Positions 8,292-37,282 of a stretch of 37,282 nt of DNA are shown in pieces. The notes beneath the pieces are model-generated. The model worked only from the letters and a program-made list of their open reading frames with translations. It had not been told where the DNA came from and ran no database searches. The stretch's first letter is position 1. Every line of letters starts with the position of its first letter. Origin of the DNA: Capnocytophaga sp. (GTDB taxonomy: Bacteria; Bacteroidota; Bacteroidia; Flavobacteriales; Flavobacteriaceae); NCBI RefSeq assembly GCF_030532915.1, contig NZ_JAUNKD010000024.1:1-37282 (forward strand), given 5' to 3'. Position numbers and translations under genes: made by a program.

Positions 8292-8720
8292 ATTATTGGA
8301 TAGTTTCGGGTTTATTCTTATGGAAGGATGCAAAAAATTATGGTTTTTACCAATCCGCTGATGGGCAGGTTGGGAAACTATTGGGTAGTTTGGTAGCTTT
8401 CCTGTGGGTTGGCTGTGAAACATTGCGGTTTTTACCAATCCGCTGATGGGCAGGTTGGGAAACTATCGGGTAGTTTGGTAGCTTTCCTGTGGGTTGGCTG
8501 TGAAAAATCCGAAAGAATGGCAATCTGCCGTTGGTGTAGCTGTCAAAATCAAGAACAGATGGTAATGTGTAACCATTTTTGCTATGTTCTGAAACATACT
8601 GTTAATTGCAATTCCCTTGTAGGGTTACTACGGATTGGAGTTTCTCATAGCCGTCAAAACAATTGGGTGGTGTACGCACGGTGCGTTTGCCATCGGCGGG
8701 CTGTGAAACTAACTATCGGA
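8292..8720. repeat. Tandem array A: 85-bp duplications built from ~21-bp units
   Basis: Bases 8342-8420 recur at 8427-8505 with a single difference (8382 versus 8467), a period of 85 bp. A more decayed copy in the same register is visible at 8292-8339. Each 85-bp copy divides into units of 21, 21, 22 and 21 bp, three of which begin TGGG and carry a central TTTGG or GGTTGG-like core. Further degenerate 21-bp units can be followed to about 8720, less surely. Confidence 0.75.
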
Positions 8721-11647: not shown

Positions 11648-11686
11648 CCCCGACAGGAAGGAGTTTCTTCCTTAAAAACAAAAACA

Positions 11687-12667
11687 ATGACTTTAACCGA
11701 ACGCATTTTTAACATCACCACGGAAGCCGAATTCACGGAAGTGGCTTTGGCTGTTTTTCGTTATCAGTTCAAGCACAATGCGGTGTATAATTCGTTCTGC
11801 AAGCATTTAAAAAGAAGCCCCGACACAGTTTTTTCTGTGAGCGAGATTCCTTTTTTGCCGATTGAGTTTTTCAAATCGAAGCGTGTTTTTTGCGGAGAAG
11901 ATGCAGAGCAACAGTTGTTTACCAGCAGCGGCACCACAGGAATGGTTACTTCCAAGCACTTTGTGAAAGATGTTTCGGTTTACGAGCAAAGTTTCCGAAA
12001 AGGATTTGAATTGTTTTACGGAAAGCCTTCTGATTATGCTGTTTTGGCACTGCTTCCGTCTTATTTGGAGCGGTCGGGTTCTTCCTTGATTTATATGACC
12101 GAAGCCCTTATCAGGGAATCAAAAAACGAAAACAGCGGGTTTTATCTTCACGAATTGGATACTTTGGCGGAAATTATTCGCAAATTGGACGCAGCAGGAC
12201 AAAAAACCTTGCTCATCGGCGTGTCGTTTGCTTTGTTGGATTTGATTGAAAAACATCGATTTACGTTAAAAAATACCATTGTAATGGAAACCGGCGGAAT
12301 GAAAGGCAGACGAAAAGAACTCATTCGTGAAGAATTACATCAGATTTTAAGCGATGGTTTTGGAGTGAAACACATTCATTCTGAGTATGGTATGACGGAA
12401 TTACTCTCGCAAGGCTACTCGCAGGGTAGCGGCATTTTCAAGTCCGTACCTTGGATGAAAATCCTGATTCGCGACACGAACGACGCACTTTCTTTCCTTC
12501 CGCAGGGGAAAAGCGGCGGTGTGAATGTCATTGATTTGGCAAATGTGCATTCGTGCAGTTTTATTGCCACGCAAGATTTAGGTAAAGTGCACAATGACAA
12601 TACGTTCGAGATTTTAGGCAGATTTGACAATGCCGACATCAGGGGTTGTAACTTATTGGTTATGTAG
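11687..12667 (+). CDS. LuxE/PaaK-like acyl-protein synthetase
   Basis: This 326-residue cytoplasmic protein of the LuxE acyl-protein synthetase family belongs to the ANL adenylating superfamily. Members activate a carboxylic or fatty acid with ATP and transfer it to a thiol or alcohol acceptor. Visible signatures are the phosphate-binding loop FTSSGTTGMVTSKH and the mid-domain METGGMKGRRKELIRE, followed by HSEYGMTELLSQ. The late motif DLGKVHNDNTFEILGRFDNADIRG is cut here in two: DLGKVHNDNTFEILGR and FDNADIRG. I chose 11687 because the promoter -7 lies between this ATG and the earlier in-frame start. There are no other lux genes nearby; in flavobacteria such genes are stand-alone and of unknown substrate. 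The 3' end overlaps the convergent ArsC-like gene by 15 bp. Confidence 0.85.
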   Translation: MTLTERIFNITTEAEFTEVALAVFRYQFKHNAVYNSFCKHLKRSPDTVFSVSEIPFLPIEFFKSKRVFCGEDAEQQLFTSSGTTGMVTSKHFVKDVSVYEQSFRKGFELFYGKPSDYAVLALLPSYLERSGSSLIYMTEALIRESKNENSGFYLHELDTLAEIIRKLDAAGQKTLLIGVSFALLDLIEKHRFTLKNTIVMETGGMKGRRKELIREELHQILSDGFGVKHIHSEYGMTELLSQGYSQGSGIFKSVPWMKILIRDTNDALSFLPQGKSGGVNVIDLANVHSCSFIATQDLGKVHNDNTFEILGRFDNADIRGCNLLVM

Positions 12668-19710: not shown

Positions 19711-19806
19711 TGATTTAGGTCAGTTTCACAACCAAATAACACAACACAAAATTGAGGTTTATAAAGCAATGAGCGGTTGGAGGGCTTGTTGCAAAACATA
19801 AAATAT

Positions 19807-22671
19807 ATGAGCGAGGGAATTACAAGATTAAGTAAAATTTTAAAGGAATTCAACATTTCTTTGGATACGGCGATTGATTATCTAACAAAAGAAAAAGGGC
19901 TTGAAATTGAGGCAAATCCGAATACGAAAATTTCGGGTGAAGCCGTGAAGTTTTTGTCCGATAAATTCAATGCAGATAAAAGCAAGCGTGAAGTTTCAAA
20001 GGAAATTGTTGAAGATCAGCGCAAAGAGCGCGAAGCGATTCGCATTGAACAAGAAAAGGAAAATGAGCGCAAACGTAAGGCACAAGAGCAAGAAATAATT
20101 CGTGCTAAGGCAACTGTTGCCGGAATTAAAACCGTCGGGAAAATTGACCTCGAACCCAAAAAAGAGGAAAAACCGGCTCAACAGGTGGTTGAGCAAAAGC
20201 CTGAAATTCCCGAAGTTGAAGTTAAGAGCGTAGCGCCCCAAGCCGAAGTCAACGTTCAAAAAGCCGAGCCTTTGAAAGAAGAAGTGCAACCCGAAGTGGT
20301 TAAAAACGATGTTGTTCAGCCCGAAACGGATAAAGAGCAACCCAAAAAGAAAACAGAATTCCCTCAAAAAGACAAACATCCTCAAAACCAAAAAGCGCAA
20401 AACAATCAGCAAAATCATCCGAAAAAGGTAAAAGAAATTCAAAAAGCCAAAAAAGATGAAAAACCTACCGAAGAACCTGAAACTGGAGTAATTGAAACAC
20501 AATATCAGAAACTTACCGGTCCCAAGTTGGTGGGCGAGAAGATTGATTTAAGTCAGTTTGAAAAGAAGAAAAAGAAGAAGAAAAAAGCAGGCGATAAAAA
20601 AGATGCCAAACCTGCCGATACGCAAAAAGCAGGTGAAGACAATGCCGAAAAACGCAAACGCAAACGTATCCGAAAAGAAGATACAACAGCTTCTACTTCA
20701 AATAATAACAACAAAAAAGAAGGCAAAGGTAACAACAAAAAAGGAAAAATCTTTACCAAAGTTGAACCTACCGATGAAGAAGTTCAAAAGCAAGTACGTG
20801 AAACCTTAGAGAAATTACAAGGTAAAAGCAATAAGTCAAAAGGAGCGAAGTACCGTAAAGAAAAGCGTGATTCACACCGCCAAAAGGCTGAAAATGAGTT
20901 GGCACAACTTGAACAAGAAGAAAAAATCCTGAAAGTAACCGAGTTTGTTACCGTAAACGAACTCGCTACGATGATGGACGTGCCTATCAACAGAGTTATC
21001 GGTGCTTGTATGTCGCTCGGCATTATGGTTACGATGAATCAACGCTTAGATGCTGAAACTCTGACTATTGTGGCTGATGAATTCGGTTTTGAGGTGGAAT
21101 TTGCCACTGCCGACATCGAAGAGTCAATCCAAGTGGAAGAAGATGCCGCTGACGATTTGAAGCCGCGTGCGCCTATCGTAACCGTTATGGGGCACGTTGA
21201 CCACGGAAAAACATCGCTTTTGGATTATATCCGTAAAGAAAACGTAATTGCTGGTGAGAGCGGAGGAATTACCCAACATATTGGTGCTTATAGTGTTAAG
21301 TTGGAGAACGGCGAGCGAATCACCTTCTTGGATACCCCCGGGCACGAGGCGTTTACCGCAATGCGTGCGCGCGGAACCAAAGTTACCGATATTGCCATTA
21401 TCGTGGTGGCTGCCGATGACGATGTGATGCCGCAAACCAAAGAGGCTATCAGCCACGCACAAGCTGCCGGTGTGCCTATTATTTTCGCTATCAATAAAAT
21501 AGATAAACCTACGGCAAATCCGGAAAAGATTAAAGAACGACTTGCCGGAATGAACCTTTTGGTAGAAGATTGGGGTGGGAAAATCCAGTCGCAAGACATT
21601 TCTGCCAAGCAAGGTATTGGCGTTCAAGAGCTTTTGGAAAAAGTATTGCTTGAAGCCGAACTTTTAGAACTCAAAGCCAACCCCAACAAACGCGCAGTGG
21701 GTACGGTGGTTGAAGCATCGCTTGACAAAGGGCGCGGTTATGTTTCTACCGTGTTGGTTGAAGCCGGAACGTTGCACGTGGGCGACTATGTGCTTGCCGG
21801 AACTAACTCCGGAAAAATCCGTGCGATGCACGACGAACGCGGTAAGAAAGTAAAAACCGCAGGTCCTTCAACACCGATTTCCATACTCGGGTTGGACGGA
21901 GCGCCACAAGCCGGCGATAAATTCTATGTGTTTGAAGATGAACGCGAAGCCAAGCAAATTGTTGCCAAACGCGCACAATTACAACGCGAACAATCGGTGC
22001 GGACACAACGCCACATCACACTTGATGAGATTGGACGCCGAATTGCCTTGGGCGACTTTAAACAACTCAATATTATCCTCAAAGGAGACGTGGACGGCTC
22101 GGTAGAAGCCCTTACCGACTCGTTCCAAAAGCTATCAACCGAAGAGATTCAAGTGTCTATCATTCACAAAGGAGTAGGGGCGATTACCGAATCAGATGTG
22201 TTGTTGGCTTCGGCTTCCGATGCCATCATTATCGGGTTTAACGTGCGTCCGATGGCAAATGCACGCGCATTGGCTGACCGTGAGGAGATAGATATCCGAA
22301 CCTATTCCATCATTTACGACGCCATCAACGACCTGAAAGACGCGATGGAAGGAATGCTTTCACCCGTGTTTAAAGAGGAAGTTACCGGAACCGTTGAGAT
22401 TCGAGAACTCTTCAAAATTTCGAAAGTCGGAACCATTGCGGGCTGTATGGTTACCGATGGGAAGATATTCCGGAACTCAAAGATACGCCTTATCCGCGAG
22501 AATGTGGTCATTTATACCGGCGAGCTTTCGTCACTTAAACGCTTTAAAGACGATGTGAAGGAAGTTTCAAAAGGATATGACTGCGGATTGCAGATTAAAA
22601 ACTACAACGACATCAAAGAAGGCGACGTAGTTGAGGCGTTCCAAGAGGTAGCCGTTAAAAAGAAACTATAA
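19807..22671 (+). CDS. infB: Translation initiation factor IF-2
   Basis: IF-2 is the GTPase that places initiator tRNA on the 30S subunit and promotes subunit joining. I prefer the ATG at 19807 ([20 protein letters not shown]), the usual start in flavobacteria, over the TTG at 19777. Residues 1-55 form an IF2N-like domain. A long, low-complexity Lys/Glu/Gln region (about 70-370) follows, which includes a run of eight Lys with one interruption near 250. A second IF2N-like domain lies near 390-440. The G domain starts near residue 460 with [15 protein letters not shown], then [15 protein letters not shown] and the guanine-specific AINKIDKP. Domains II, III and IV follow. At 954 residues it is long, mainly because of the linker. 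It lies 96 bp after nusA. Confidence 0.97.
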
Positions 22672-22720: not shown

Positions 22721-22751
22721 AAAGGGGTAATCAGTAATGGTTACCTCTTTT
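22721..22751 (+). terminator. Terminator of the rimP-nusA-infB operon
   Basis: AAAGGGGTAA (22721-22730) pairs with TTACCTCTTT (22741-22750), with one G-T pair, and is followed by a T-rich stretch. It lies 50 bp after the infB stop. Confidence 0.65.
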
Positions 22752-22768
22752 AGTGTTTTTCAATAACA

Positions 22769-23188
22769 ACCACCAATAAATGGATTTTAACTGCCAATAA
22801 ATCTATTTTGGTTGTAAATAAATTGGGTTTTATGGCAGTTTTAAGGTGTTTTACTGGTTTTTTTGCTTTTTAGATGGCTTATTTTGATGTAAAAAGTACC
22901 GTTTTAGGTTATTTTATGGCTTATAAGAAGGGTTTTGCCGACTATAATTCATTTCTTACCGGTAAAAAATCATTTATCGGCAGTCAGATATGATTTATTA
23001 CCGGTCAAATGTGATTTCTTGTCGGTCAAATATGATTTCTTGTAGCCTATAAATTGTTTTTAAATGCCTTTGGAACATTTATTGCTGACCTTTTGTTAAA
23101 GAATGGCGGTATTAAATCGTTTCTTTGTGACCTTTTATTAAATAATGCAGGTAATTGCTTGTTTCTTGGCGGTTATGTTTGAAATATA
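22769..23188. repeat. Tandem array B: about 20 degenerate 21-bp units
   Basis: Almost the whole infB-to-lipoprotein gap can be cut into consecutive 21-bp units with two indels (one unit of 22, one of 20). In most, positions 3-6 read like CGGT/GGCT/TGAC and the unit ends TTTCTT, TTTTT or similar. The clearest units start at 22958, 22979, 23000, 23021 and 23042; those at 23000 and 23021 differ at only 3 positions. The pair starting at 23084/23105 recurs 42 bp later at 23126/23147. Stops occur in all frames, so it is not coding. Confidence 0.75.
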
Positions 23189-23243
23189 ATAGGTCAAGAC
23201 GATAAAAAGTGTGAGAAAATACTATATAATTAAAGTATTTTTA

Positions 23244-23272: not shown

Positions 23273-24229
23273 ATGATGAAAAAGACTTTTCTGGTTGCCT
23301 TGTTGGCAATTCTTGGTGCGGGGTGCGATAATCCGCAGGGTAAAAAAGCTAAAAATGATGCGGTTTCATCGGAAGTTGTTGAGCAACCTTTTCTGAAAAC
23401 CATTGAATATTCAAATCTGGTAGATAAACCTACACAAAATTTCGTTAGAGAGGCACTTATTGCCGGTGGAGTGCGGCAAACGTATGCCGATGATTTCCTT
23501 GAAGTGGTTACGGATTTTAATCAAACCGTTGGTGAGGCAGGTCTTGTTGCCGATGGCTTTGTAATGTCTGATTCGTTGGAAGTTGCATATGACGTAGGGA
23601 AGATTATCACCCGATGGGAAGCCAAACATCCGGTTTTTCCGGGGTATAATTGCAGGCTTACCTCATTTGGGTTGTTTCGTGATTTGATTTCGGTAGGTAA
23701 TCCGATGCAAGAAAAAGCCAAAAACCTACTTATTGATGCCGATGCCTTGAAAACCAATGCCCAAAAAACATTAACCCAAGCCGAAGAAGCTAATTTTATG
23801 GCTCTTTTTGCTTCTGTTCCTGCTGAAAATCATAAAGATGTTGCCCGTCATTTGCAAAAAATGCAGGAGGCATTCAGTGAGCGCGGTATTCGTTTCCTTC
23901 ATACGGGTGATGCCTCGAAAGCATCGCTGGTGAGTGTTGTTTTTCATTCGGTTTTTAGTGATGACCCTGCCGATATCTATCTTTTTATCGGTCACGTGGG
24001 GCTTCTGCTTCCGACAGAAAACAACAAATTGCTCTTTATTGAAAAATTGGCGTTCGATGAGCCTTACCAAGCCATCAAATTCAATAACCGAACCGAGTTG
24101 AACGATTACCTGATGAACCGATACGACGTAGATAAGGGGCAATCCCAAGCCAAGCCGTTCCTGATGGAAAACGATGCGTTACTGGAAGGTTACCGACCCA
24201 ATCCGCGCAACATAGAACCGAAAATATAA
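23273..24229 (+). CDS. DUF4300-like lipoprotein
   Basis: This lipoprotein of 318 residues has the signal MMKKTFLVALLAILGAGC, with the acylated Cys at 18. The mature part contains NCRLTSFGLFRDLI, which recalls DUF4300 proteins (an Asn-Cys-Arg core), and the late strand-like segments ASLVSVVFHSVFSDDPADI and YLFIGHVGLLL. Function is unknown. I chose 23273 (23276 is equally possible) because the promoter -7 overlaps the longer TTG start at 23249. It is followed after 6 bp by a small conserved gene, probably in the same transcript. The DUF4300 call is from memory and moderate. Confidence 0.65.
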   Translation: MMKKTFLVALLAILGAGCDNPQGKKAKNDAVSSEVVEQPFLKTIEYSNLVDKPTQNFVREALIAGGVRQTYADDFLEVVTDFNQTVGEAGLVADGFVMSDSLEVAYDVGKIITRWEAKHPVFPGYNCRLTSFGLFRDLISVGNPMQEKAKNLLIDADALKTNAQKTLTQAEEANFMALFASVPAENHKDVARHLQKMQEAFSERGIRFLHTGDASKASLVSVVFHSVFSDDPADIYLFIGHVGLLLPTENNKLLFIEKLAFDEPYQAIKFNNRTELNDYLMNRYDVDKGQSQAKPFLMENDALLEGYRPNPRNIEPKI

Positions 24230-24796: not shown

Positions 24797-25333
24797 ATGA
24801 CTCACGAGCAGAACAAAGAGTTCCAACGATGGATTGAAAGCTACTCCGATGCGCTGTTGCAACGCGCCGGTTATATGCTTTCGGACAAAGAAGCGGCACA
24901 AGATGTCGTTCAAGAAGTTTTTTTGGCGGCATACACCCGCTTGCATACCTTTAAAGAAGAAAGCAGTCCGCTGACGTGGTTGCAGAGTATCCTTCGTAAT
25001 AAAATAGCCGACTTTTATCGGGTGAAGTACAAGCAACCTGCCGAAATTAGTGTCTCACATTTCTTTGATGAGAACGGCGATTGGATAAATCGGGAGGTAA
25101 CCCAAGGCTGGGAAACGCCTTTTGAAGCAGAACTGGACGTTGAAAGCGCCTTATATGACTGTATTGAAAAACTGCCTCCGCGATGGAAGACATTGGTGAA
25201 ACTATATTATTTGGAACAGAAAAAAAATGAAGCGGTTTGTCAGGAAACGGGGGTTTCTTCGACTAATCTTTGGAAGATATTACAGCGAAGTCGGTTACAG
25301 CTTCGCGAATGTTTGGAACAAAATGCCCTATGA
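24797..25333 (+). CDS. ECF-type RNA polymerase sigma factor
   Basis: The 178-residue protein has sigma region 2 (about 15-80; KEAAQDVVQEVFLAAYTRLH is the polymerase-binding and -10 part) and region 4 (about 120-175; LPPRWKTLVKLYYLEQKKNE, then the helix-turn-helix SSTNLWKILQRSRLQLRECL). The size fits the ECF group, with no extra domain. Its TGA overlaps the ATG of the next gene (TGATG), typical for a sigma/anti-sigma pair. It probably directs transcription of its own locus and of the DUF417 and msrAB genes downstream, by analogy with oxidant-responsive ECF systems. No convincing autoregulatory promoter was identified upstream. Confidence 0.93.
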   Translation: MTHEQNKEFQRWIESYSDALLQRAGYMLSDKEAAQDVVQEVFLAAYTRLHTFKEESSPLTWLQSILRNKIADFYRVKYKQPAEISVSHFFDENGDWINREVTQGWETPFEAELDVESALYDCIEKLPPRWKTLVKLYYLEQKKNEAVCQETGVSSTNLWKILQRSRLQLRECLEQNAL

Positions 25334-25614
25334 TGAATATGAGAAAACTTATCCATTTTTTGATTCTTCCGTGTAGTGAAGTGTCGTTTCTTATTGAGAA
25401 ACAGCTCGCCGGAAGGTTGTCGTTTGTTGAAAAACTTCGGTTGCGCTTTCATTTAATATGGTGTAACCTTTGTCGCTCATACCGGCAAAAAGCGACGTAC
25501 CTTGATAATTTGATGCGCAAACAAGCGCACAAGCAGCCCGATGTGTCGTTTGATGCTTCGGAGGTGTGCGATTTTCAACAGAAATTGAAGCGTCAATTTT
25601 CCGAAATGAAGTAA
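25333..25614 (+). CDS. Putative zinc-binding anti-sigma factor, soluble
   Basis: This 93-residue protein starts at the ATG overlapping the sigma factor's stop (the ATG at 25339 is also possible). It contains a zinc anti-sigma (ZAS) type ligand set: Cys14, His40, Cys44 and Cys47, that is C-x25-H-x3-C-x2-C. From memory, this spacing is the same as in the redox-sensing anti-sigma factor RsrA (Cys11, His37, Cys41, Cys44). There is no transmembrane helix, which also fits an intracellular redox sensor rather than a membrane-anchored one. The C-terminal helix ends FQQKLKRQFSEMK. Sequence similarity beyond the ligands is weak, so the call rests on motif and position. Confidence 0.7.
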   Translation: MNMRKLIHFLILPCSEVSFLIEKQLAGRLSFVEKLRLRFHLIWCNLCRSYRQKATYLDNLMRKQAHKQPDVSFDASEVCDFQQKLKRQFSEMK

Positions 25615-25721
25615 GAAATGCCGATGATTTGGCATTGAATGCCTGACGTGAAGCAACTAATGCCGAAGATGAAGCAACCAATGCCGGATGTTGGGCAACC
25701 GATTCCCGATGTGAAGCAGCG
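25596..25721. repeat. Tandem array C: 21-bp units starting across the anti-sigma stop codon
   Basis: Five 21-bp units begin at 25617, 25638, 25659, 25680 and 25701; four begin AATGCC and most end GAAGCAACC or close to it. The preceding 21 bp (25596-25616), which include the gene's last codons and TAA stop, match a unit at 12 of 21 positions. In the gene's frame, downstream of TAA and one TGA, the units read as the heptads MPDVKQL, MPKMKQP, MPDVGQP and IPDVKQR. Confidence 0.8.
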
Positions 25722-25738
25722 GGTTTCGGGGGTAGGGT

Positions 25739-25771
25739 AGCTTTGTCAAAGTTGAAAACTTTGACAAAGCT
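25739..25771 (+). terminator. 15-bp perfect hairpin after the anti-sigma gene
   Basis: AGCTTTGTCAAAGTT (25739-25753) pairs perfectly with AACTTTGACAAAGCT (25757-25771) over a 3-nt loop. There is no T run directly after it. It belongs to the CTTTGNCAAAG hairpin family and may separate the sigma/anti-sigma transcript from the genes downstream. Confidence 0.55.
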
Positions 25772-36979: not shown

Positions 36980-37282
36980 TTTAAAATTTTTAATTATGCA
37001 ACTAAGGGTGTTTTAGTTATTTTTGGTTTTTAACTTTGACAAAGTTTCAAGACTTTGTCAAAGTTTGATGCTCAAAGTTGTCAGAATGTGTGCATTCTTA
37101 TAACTTTTGGTTTTTTAACTTTGTAAAAGTTGCAAACTTTGACAAAGTTTTTAGTAAAAAGTTATCGGAATGCGTTCGTTATTGTAGCTTTTTATTTTTG
37201 GAATTGTTAGAATGAGTGCATTCTTGTAACTTTTGGTTTTTTAACTTTGACAAAGTTTCAAAACTTTGTCAAAGTTTTTGGT
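36980..37282. other. Non-coding right edge with array D
   Basis: The last 303 bp have no gene. About 40 bp of AT-rich leader precede the permease start, and from 37021 to the edge the sequence is array D, which continues beyond the window. No convincing promoter for the permeases was seen in the short leader. Confidence 0.7.
37021..37282. repeat. Tandem array D: 21-bp units with paired palindromes
   Basis: The segment divides into twelve 21-bp units without an indel. TTTTGGTTTTTAACTTTG-like starts occur at 37021, 37105 and 37231 (spacings of 84 and 126 bp, four and six units), and GAATGNGTGCATTCTT-like units at 37084, 37168 (worn) and 37210 (84 and 42 bp apart). Three hairpins form from AACTTTGWCAAAGTT pairs: 37032-37065 (14-bp stem), 37117-37149 (15 bp, one mismatch) and 37243-37276 (16-bp stem). 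Confidence 0.85.

Follow-up and report, generated by a model that had tools for sequence, protein, structure and literature searches.

The gap between infB and a lipoprotein gene in this Capnocytophaga genome contains about 20 degenerate, non-coding units on a 21-bp lattice (array B; 22769..23188, no strand assigned). Judged from its sequence, array B is a diverged satellite of a unit family linked to genes for PQLLE proteins, and we narrowly favour placing it in a class of non-coding recognition arrays partnered with small helical proteins. The lattice, the linkage to genes, the preferred gene side, the sharing of units across species, the single inversion centre and the match in symmetry were all computed. 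Positions refer to the window, the whole 37,282-nucleotide stretch that was analysed, unless a locus is named.

Period-21 arrays in the window and beyond

Array B is supported by lag-21 identity, segment score and the lack of a long open frame. It lies where a sequence-only reading had placed it, between infB (19777..22671, + strand; open reading frame list), the C-terminal part of which was present in all 20 genomes examined from the genus, and a downstream lipoprotein gene with a DUF4300 domain (23273..24229, + strand; Pfam PF14133, 5.8e-90). A DUF4300 relative, 37% identical, is encoded by L025, a contig deposited as a Corynebacterium metagenome-assembled genome that is possibly mis-binned. 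The 21-bp period described in that reading is real: lag-21 self-identity in 22769-23188 was 0.504, versus 0.300 ± 0.022 (maximum 0.376) in 1,000 dinucleotide shuffles (z 9.4). Among lags 5-89, the strongest after 21 were 42, 63 and 84, and the local lag-21 segment score reached 71.8, while 60 shuffled versions of the gap gave at most 19.3. Near infB, the highest-scoring local lag-21 segment spanned 22768-23092, 210-base windows with lag-21 identity above 0.45 covered 22738-23222, and Tandem Repeats Finder reported period 21 only in the best-kept part, 22951-23042 (4.4 copies, 73% matches). Adjacent units are about 51% identical and spacers are absent, which excludes a CRISPR array, and no plasmid DNA resembling the gap was found.

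The longest open stretch in the six frames of array B was 48 of 140 codons (p 0.92), so each frame is interrupted by a stop, which bears out the claim that array B is not an eroded gene for a heptad-repeat protein. Such a gene would give 21 bp a meaning as seven codons, and some arrays do contain long open frames (for example, L320:2325-2642), but in 16 of 17 arrays the open frames were no longer than in column-permuted versions, the exception being the A-rich L034, and arms are inverted within a single array. With stops in all frames, the idea is ruled out for array B, and we regard it as next to impossible for the class.

Period-21 gaps recur elsewhere in the genome, and array B stands above shuffled sequence in autocorrelation: these were the two outcomes on which the sequence-only reading had staked its proposal. 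Sampling 734 kb of this genome (the window and 40 further stretches) gave 219 gaps of 150 bp or longer, in which lags 42, 21, 63, 105 and 84 topped all 114 lags, with 14, 12, 9, 9 and 7 gaps at z of at least 4; the next, lag 10, had 5. A local segment scan of the sample, from which gaps containing runs of N were dropped, gave scores of at least 24 in 15 gaps at period 21, 7 at period 22, 16 at period 42 and 12 at period 63, and in 0 or 1 gaps at most other periods from 12 to 62. The genus sample comprised 20 species with genomes of 2.3-3.2 Mb. The corresponding counts for ten further species in the genus (800 kb, 193 gaps) were six gaps each at lags 42 and 84, four each at lags 7, 11 and 21 and three at lag 63; by local score, there were five at period 21, five at period 22, eight at period 42 and four at period 63. 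Twenty genomes from other genera of the family (313 kb in 20 stretches, six of them shorter than 20 kb; 73 gaps) had a single gap at lag 21 and none at lag 42. Unit sequence varied between array loci.

Phased curvature, one of three roles suggested for array B by the sequence-only reading, found no support. Helical phase alone would raise lags 31-32 together with 21 and 42, and lags 31-32 were flat, with negative mean z values of -0.16 and -0.11. A second of those roles, a recombination relic, may still apply, because the DUF4300 gene never adjoins infB in 18 relatives and no array is found there. Neither a conserved counterpart of the gap nor, at threshold 24, an array 3′ of infB was found in the 18 relatives with sequence at that place (one of 20 loci, L266, stops at the contig end); the scores coming closest to it downstream of infB were those of G016 (23.6, at a distance of 956 bases) and G011 (20.7).

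The window holds a second period-21 array, GC-richer and with a unit unrelated to that of array B (25599..25745, no strand assigned; lag-21 segment 25583-25741, 38.2 versus a shuffle maximum of 9.7). By eye, it appears to continue from the 3′ end of an open reading frame at 25270-25614. An apparently recent 85-bp tandem duplication with 98% matches lies at 8342-8505, and 84-bp (4 x 21) repeats carrying a CTTTGTCAAAGTT-type palindrome occupy 37021-37264. The palindrome CTTTGTCAAAGTT-N4-AACTTTGACAAAG has 54 copies in this genome, allowing up to 3 mismatches. Among the places listed, 7 of 11 spacings of up to 400 bp were exact multiples of 21 and two more were off by 1, four of the seven exact spacings coming from two loci at which the lattice was first noticed. 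A family sample of 60 genomes yielded no CTTTGTCAAAGTT-type palindrome, with up to 2 mismatches, in any of its 58 other genera.

A dispersed mobile or REP-like element with a 21-bp inner step by chance would account for these palindrome copies on the 21 lattice and for the location of array B where relatives have other infB neighbours. However, units differ across arrays and genera while period and gene side stay constant, satellite positions are common to several species and no transposase was recognised by eye among the genes flanking 17 arrays. We consider such an element very unlikely.

Array B units in other arrays and species

Units matching the PQLLE-linked family occur in array B in both orientations, termed R and F. 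The R-type unit at 22774..22794 (+ strand) scored 18.4 bits with a model built from cis arrays of G002 and G003 and 18.9 bits with a 124-unit model, for which shuffles had a 95% point of 6.7 and a maximum of 13.8. Two F-type units, with the R motif on the opposite strand, occupy 22938..22979 (- strand; 12.7 and 19.2 bits, 124-unit model), and three more form the best-kept part of array B at 22980..23042 (- strand; 12.2, 18.7 and 21.7 bits), within the Tandem Repeats Finder segment. A weight matrix derived solely from the G002 and G003 PQLLE cis arrays scored array B units at 18.4, 16.3, 16.0 and 16.0 bits, the 95% point of shuffle maxima being 10.0; we call an array a satellite when a cis-array model from other species recognises its units, as here (18.4 versus 10.0 bits). 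As controls, array L079 reached 3.8, and two other stretches reached 11.5 and 12.9 once each, against their own 95% points of 9.1. By pattern search, the array B unit was also located in two other arrays here: L038 on contig C35, which directly precedes a PQLLE gene on its 5′ side, and L041 on contig C49. Its 25-base pattern had six matches in this genome; C49 accounted for three of them, and C70 (array B), C35 and C76 had one apiece.

Across the genus, the 25-base pattern matched 6 to 23 times each in G000, G002, G003, G004, G005, G006 and G019 and 0 to 2 times in the other 13 species; a reversed control pattern gave 0 or 1. The PQLLE subfamily to which the L038 product belongs (at least 53% identity) is present in G000, G002-G006 and G019, plus G015. 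Thus, the L038-type unit was frequent in seven of eight species with the subfamily and in none of 12 without it (p 1e-4, a value that ignores species kinship and uses a threshold of at least 4 matches set post hoc). L038-type cis arrays were present in six of seven species (G004 had a single match only), and none was found beside the subfamily gene of G006.

The sister arrays share an arrangement around one centre. In 11 of 11, from seven species and representing six independent places, a run of R units is followed by a run of F units with one switch, and the starts of the last R and the first F lie exactly 17 bases apart over a core of ACCGGT, or ACTGGT in one case. A first reading of this spacing dropped off-register matches, and the repeat without the lattice filter used the main cluster at each locus; three single matches fell far outside the clusters (L322:1026, L325:3980 and L326:3487). 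All cluster units on one side of a switch keep one register, except for one F unit in L325 that is off by one base. Five sister arrays from five species (L317, L318, L319, L320 and L324) lie between the same two genes, which from their first residues we take to encode an RND transporter and its fusion protein, and differ in unit number; two more, from two species, have one pair of neighbours in common, a glycosyltransferase-like and a deacetylase-like gene. The arms are of variable length (3+8, 3+8, 1+7, 3+11 and 11+2 units). Other PQLLE subfamilies have arrays mostly in one orientation, with few inverted matches that are mostly out of phase, so the single-inversion rule is restricted to the L038-type unit and was rejected for PQLLE arrays in general. 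The units of one PQLLE-linked array, L286, apparently alternate in orientation, unlike those of other PQLLE arrays, and an open reading frame at L325:800-1153, close to a satellite array, encodes an almost perfect heptad repeat (SLCTDLI).

Array B has a candidate inversion centre of this kind at 22958..22963 (ACCGGT, no strand assigned), where an R-type match at 22942 (12.6 bits) overlaps an F-type match at 22959 with a start-to-start distance of 17, as over the ACYGGT core of the sister arrays. A second ACCGGT lies at 23000-23005. In the sister-array register the order in array B is RFFFFF, with 164 bases (7 x 21 + 17) from the last R to the first F and many unmatched units between them. Since the majority of its units no longer match the 124-unit model, array B is possibly decaying.

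Three small-protein families and the symmetry of their arrays

Three protein families were seen among the genes beside 17 arrays: PQLLE (about 220 aa, NF052641) and two referred to by length, the 103-aa and 164-aa families. The L038 product (L038:11654-12334; scored as 11654-12331) is a PQLLE member, with 182.2 bits against the NF052641 cut-off of 80. The NF052641 record, as shown, holds a name only, and the word PQLLE was not found in the open-licence literature searched. Neither the 103-aa nor the 164-aa family had a Pfam or NCBIfam match above cut-off, the 164-aa members giving weak matches, and PHROGs and PADLOC likewise returned only weak matches. The genus contained 74 PQLLE matches (51 above cut-off), 49 of the 103-aa family and 37 of the 164-aa family, of which 50, 49 and 36 loci, respectively, were examined. 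The contig of the window yielded no member of any of the three families, and many arrays, array B included, have no adjoining family gene.

Arrays with a score of at least 30 lay within 1.5 kb of family genes at 62 of 90 loci (30 per family: PQLLE 22, 103-aa 21 and 164-aa 19) versus 25 of 384 random 3.5-kb genus pieces (Fisher 2.9e-35), counts that are inflated because some family loci are orthologous and not all are independent; redundant arrays were removed in the dyad test only. Each family had a preferred side, counting scores of at least 24 within 700 bp of the gene. PQLLE arrays were 5′ at 23 of 30 loci in the first sample (2 were 3′) and at 15 of 20 further loci (1 was 3′), or 38 of 50 pooled. 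For the 103-aa family, the array was 5′ at 20 of 30 (1 was 3′) and 16 of 19 further loci (none was 3′), pooling to 36 of 49. The 164-aa arrays were 3′ at 19 of 30 loci (3 were 5′) and at 5 of 6 further ones (none was 5′), 24 of 36 in all. At a like threshold, 50 of 1,071 random 1.4-kb pieces within the genus and 3 of 218 outside it had an array. The fixed gene side suggests that each protein acts on its own kind of array. Period 22 replaces 21 in L190, L191, L193, L198 and L200, arrays that lie 3′ of 164-aa genes.

Among 392 Bacteroidota genomes, the 103-aa model had strong matches only in this genome and weak ones in five others (best 1.8e-5); the 164-aa model had matches in 31 genomes, this one included, from 22 of 179 genera. 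Of 29 loci for the 164-aa family in other genera, three were dropped because the gene could not be placed; at the remaining 26, the array was 3′ in 15 and 5′ in 2, with one locus carrying arrays on both sides, and eight control periods gave 0 of 26. The units of these arrays differ from one another. Plasmid searches with two 164-aa members and a phage search with one returned a single plasmid match, L276, on a Gammaproteobacterial plasmid (Candidatus Thiodictyon syntrophicum), beside which there was no array. L276 is flanked by polyamine genes on one side and a pyruvate kinase gene on the other, and may reflect transfer between phyla.

Unit symmetry parallels protein architecture. Units were dyad-symmetric in 29 of 52 distinct arrays (p <0.05, column permutation), a sample taking the best array per locus on either side and dropping arrays that scored below 40, had fewer than four units or had 12-mers in common with an earlier array. 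In the first sample, dyad units were present in 2 of 11 PQLLE arrays, 7 of 13 of the 103-aa family and, for the 164-aa family, 8 of 14 within the genus and 12 of 14 outside it; further loci, filtered in the same way, gave 0 of 8, 8 of 12 and 1 of 4, respectively. The pooled contrast between the 103-aa and PQLLE families was 15 of 25 versus 2 of 19 (p 0.0014); it was not significant in the first sample alone (p 0.10) but was so in the further loci alone (p 0.0047), and held there without L221 and L224, two previously seen 103-aa arrays (6 of 10 versus 0 of 8, p 0.013). Dyad symmetry as a general rule for the arrays was therefore rejected, PQLLE arrays being mostly without it. Array B gave a positive dyad test because both unit orientations are present.

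The two halves of PQLLE are alike at 8.4e-12, and their matches to the 103-aa family are at 2.4e-6 and 4.9e-6, so that by sequence comparison PQLLE is a fused pair of 103-aa-type domains. In the predicted PQLLE fold, a repeat containing a single 56-residue helix occurs twice (helices at 53-108 and 160-215; mean pLDDT 88.5), and the predicted 164-aa model has one 55-residue helix. No significant sequence similarity was found between the 164-aa family and the other two, and a Foldseek comparison of both predicted folds with the PDB gave no match at E of 0.001 or below, and hence no resemblance to a known DNA binder. Palindromic units for a symmetric dimer and polar units for a fused pseudo-dimer are what would be expected if the proteins bind the units, which is an argument and not a proof.

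Alternatively, the arrays might act as RNA or single-stranded DNA, with a transcribed array and a small helical protein as its RNA-binding partner. On either strand, the folding of array B surpasses that of shuffled sequence (z -4.3 and -5.2), dyad units would give hairpins and the 5′ arrays could be leaders of the PQLLE and 103-aa genes. However, good folding of both strands is expected of any inverted repeat in DNA, and the unequal arms (3+8, 1+7 and 11+2 units) exclude a full-length hairpin. PQLLE arrays mostly lack dyads, helical spacing has no rationale in RNA, and array B as a known structured RNA was set aside with 0 Rfam matches at gathering scores in the window. We consider a role as RNA or single strand quite improbable.

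The arrays might also be products of mutation, neutral tracts built by duplication and deletion in 21-bp steps, with protein linkage through hitch-hiking or through proteins that drive the process. One step is common to many unrelated unit sequences, an alignment gap of exactly one 21-bp unit distinguishes the orthologous 164-aa arrays of G019 and G006, and in some arrays unit identity declines with distance between units, the pattern predicted for local duplication (in L077:19393, from 0.53 to 0.33); the apparent continuation of the window's second array from a gene end points the same way. Against this, each family keeps its preferred array side in two samples, satellites with the same unit occur in species carrying the PQLLE subfamily, all 11 sister arrays switch once at 17 bases and unit symmetry tracks domain number. 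Moreover, in 9 of 17 arrays conserved and variable columns contrast more strongly than under a model of uniform decay (p <0.01), and at one 103-aa locus the aligned region of four species shows 89-99.7% identity, with indels outside the array but none within it. On balance, we think a purely mutational origin fairly unlikely. Unit similarity correlated with protein identity (below 70%) in the PQLLE family (r 0.47, p 0.001) and weakly in the 103-aa family (0.19, 0.024); in the 164-aa family the correlation was not significant (r 0.10, p 0.083).

Proposed mechanism and known systems

From the computed features we infer physical binding, with duplex DNA as the target, and a biological role. Each unit would be taken by one protein dimer, or by one fused PQLLE pseudo-dimer, and because units recur every 21 bp, two turns of B-DNA, the bound proteins would all sit on one face of the helix. 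This row of proteins would build a local nucleoprotein structure; in the L038-type family, the central ACCGGT dyad would be the starting point of assembly, which would extend outwards both ways, and the outcome could be regulation or tethering of neighbouring genes. The likely partner of array B is the PQLLE protein encoded at L038:11654-12334 on C35, which has its own cis array just 5′ of the gene with a unit in common with array B. Of the three roles in the sequence-only reading, a binding array thus fares best, although the candidate partners are small, gene-linked helical proteins and not the general nucleoid protein envisaged there. Points against binding are the near-neutral charge of two families (median pI 6.0 and 6.1, near neutral or acidic; the 103-aa family has 8.9), the lack of a recognised DNA-binding fold and the large number of arrays that no family gene adjoins. 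The 164-aa results (no significant tie of unit similarity to protein identity, dyads in only 1 of 4 further arrays and no array beside L276), the poor match of most array B units to the model and the two control stretches with a match above their 95% points weigh in the same direction.

More speculatively, and with rather less confidence than we place in the reading of array B itself, Bacteroidota may carry mutually orthogonal protein-array modules in which long-helix proteins coat their own 21-22 bp lattice as one-sided filaments: symmetric dimers on palindromic units, fused pseudo-dimers on polar units and one subfamily running in two directions from a central dyad, with satellites such as array B extending the address to other genes. 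Families without an assigned function would gain a candidate target, a candidate reason would emerge for a kind of intergenic DNA in which the period is kept though the sequence changes, and a puzzling gap would become a testable genome-wide system. If binding is confirmed, Bacteroidota would possess many orthogonal protein-DNA pairs of unusual geometry, useful for studies of chromosome organisation and as tools.

A paper on Porphyromonas gingivalis repeats states that short repeats of 3 to 31 bp went unannotated (PMC5771137). The view of the sequence-only reading that no family of such form had been described agrees with the titles and abstract openings of the open-licence literature, where none was found.

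Several known systems share part of this design. Intergenic, often palindromic, repeated elements cognate to a gene family are familiar as REP/BIME elements with RAYT genes. The arrays here are likewise intergenic, often palindromic, repeated and gene-family-linked, but their units are mostly locus-specific and on a strict 21-bp lattice, and the linked families have no transposase match in Pfam or NCBIfam. Plasmid partition centromeres of the parC/ParR type have a small protein gene beside an array of short repeats, with one dimer per unit. The small protein gene beside a short-repeat array is common to both, and one dimer per unit is proposed here; unlike those centromeres, the present arrays have no partner NTPase gene recognised by eye beside 17 of them, exist in many orthogonal copies and have satellites elsewhere. 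Iterons of plasmid origins are direct repeats of about 17-22 bp, around two helical turns per unit, beside the gene for their partner protein, and our arrays are alike in repeat length, helical turns and adjacency to the candidate partner's gene. The arrays described here are instead chromosomal, with many modules per genome, each having its own unit, and no Rep domain was found in the partner families with Pfam or NCBIfam. Array B was rejected as a set of plasmid-type iterons, its neighbours being infB and the DUF4300 gene, with no adjacent replication initiator. Iterons and partition centromeres, the closest known kinds, have like geometry, but without these partner proteins, this number of orthogonal modules or satellites. 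The best-supported reading is of iteron-like arrays on which one protein dimer or pseudo-dimer would bind per two helical turns.
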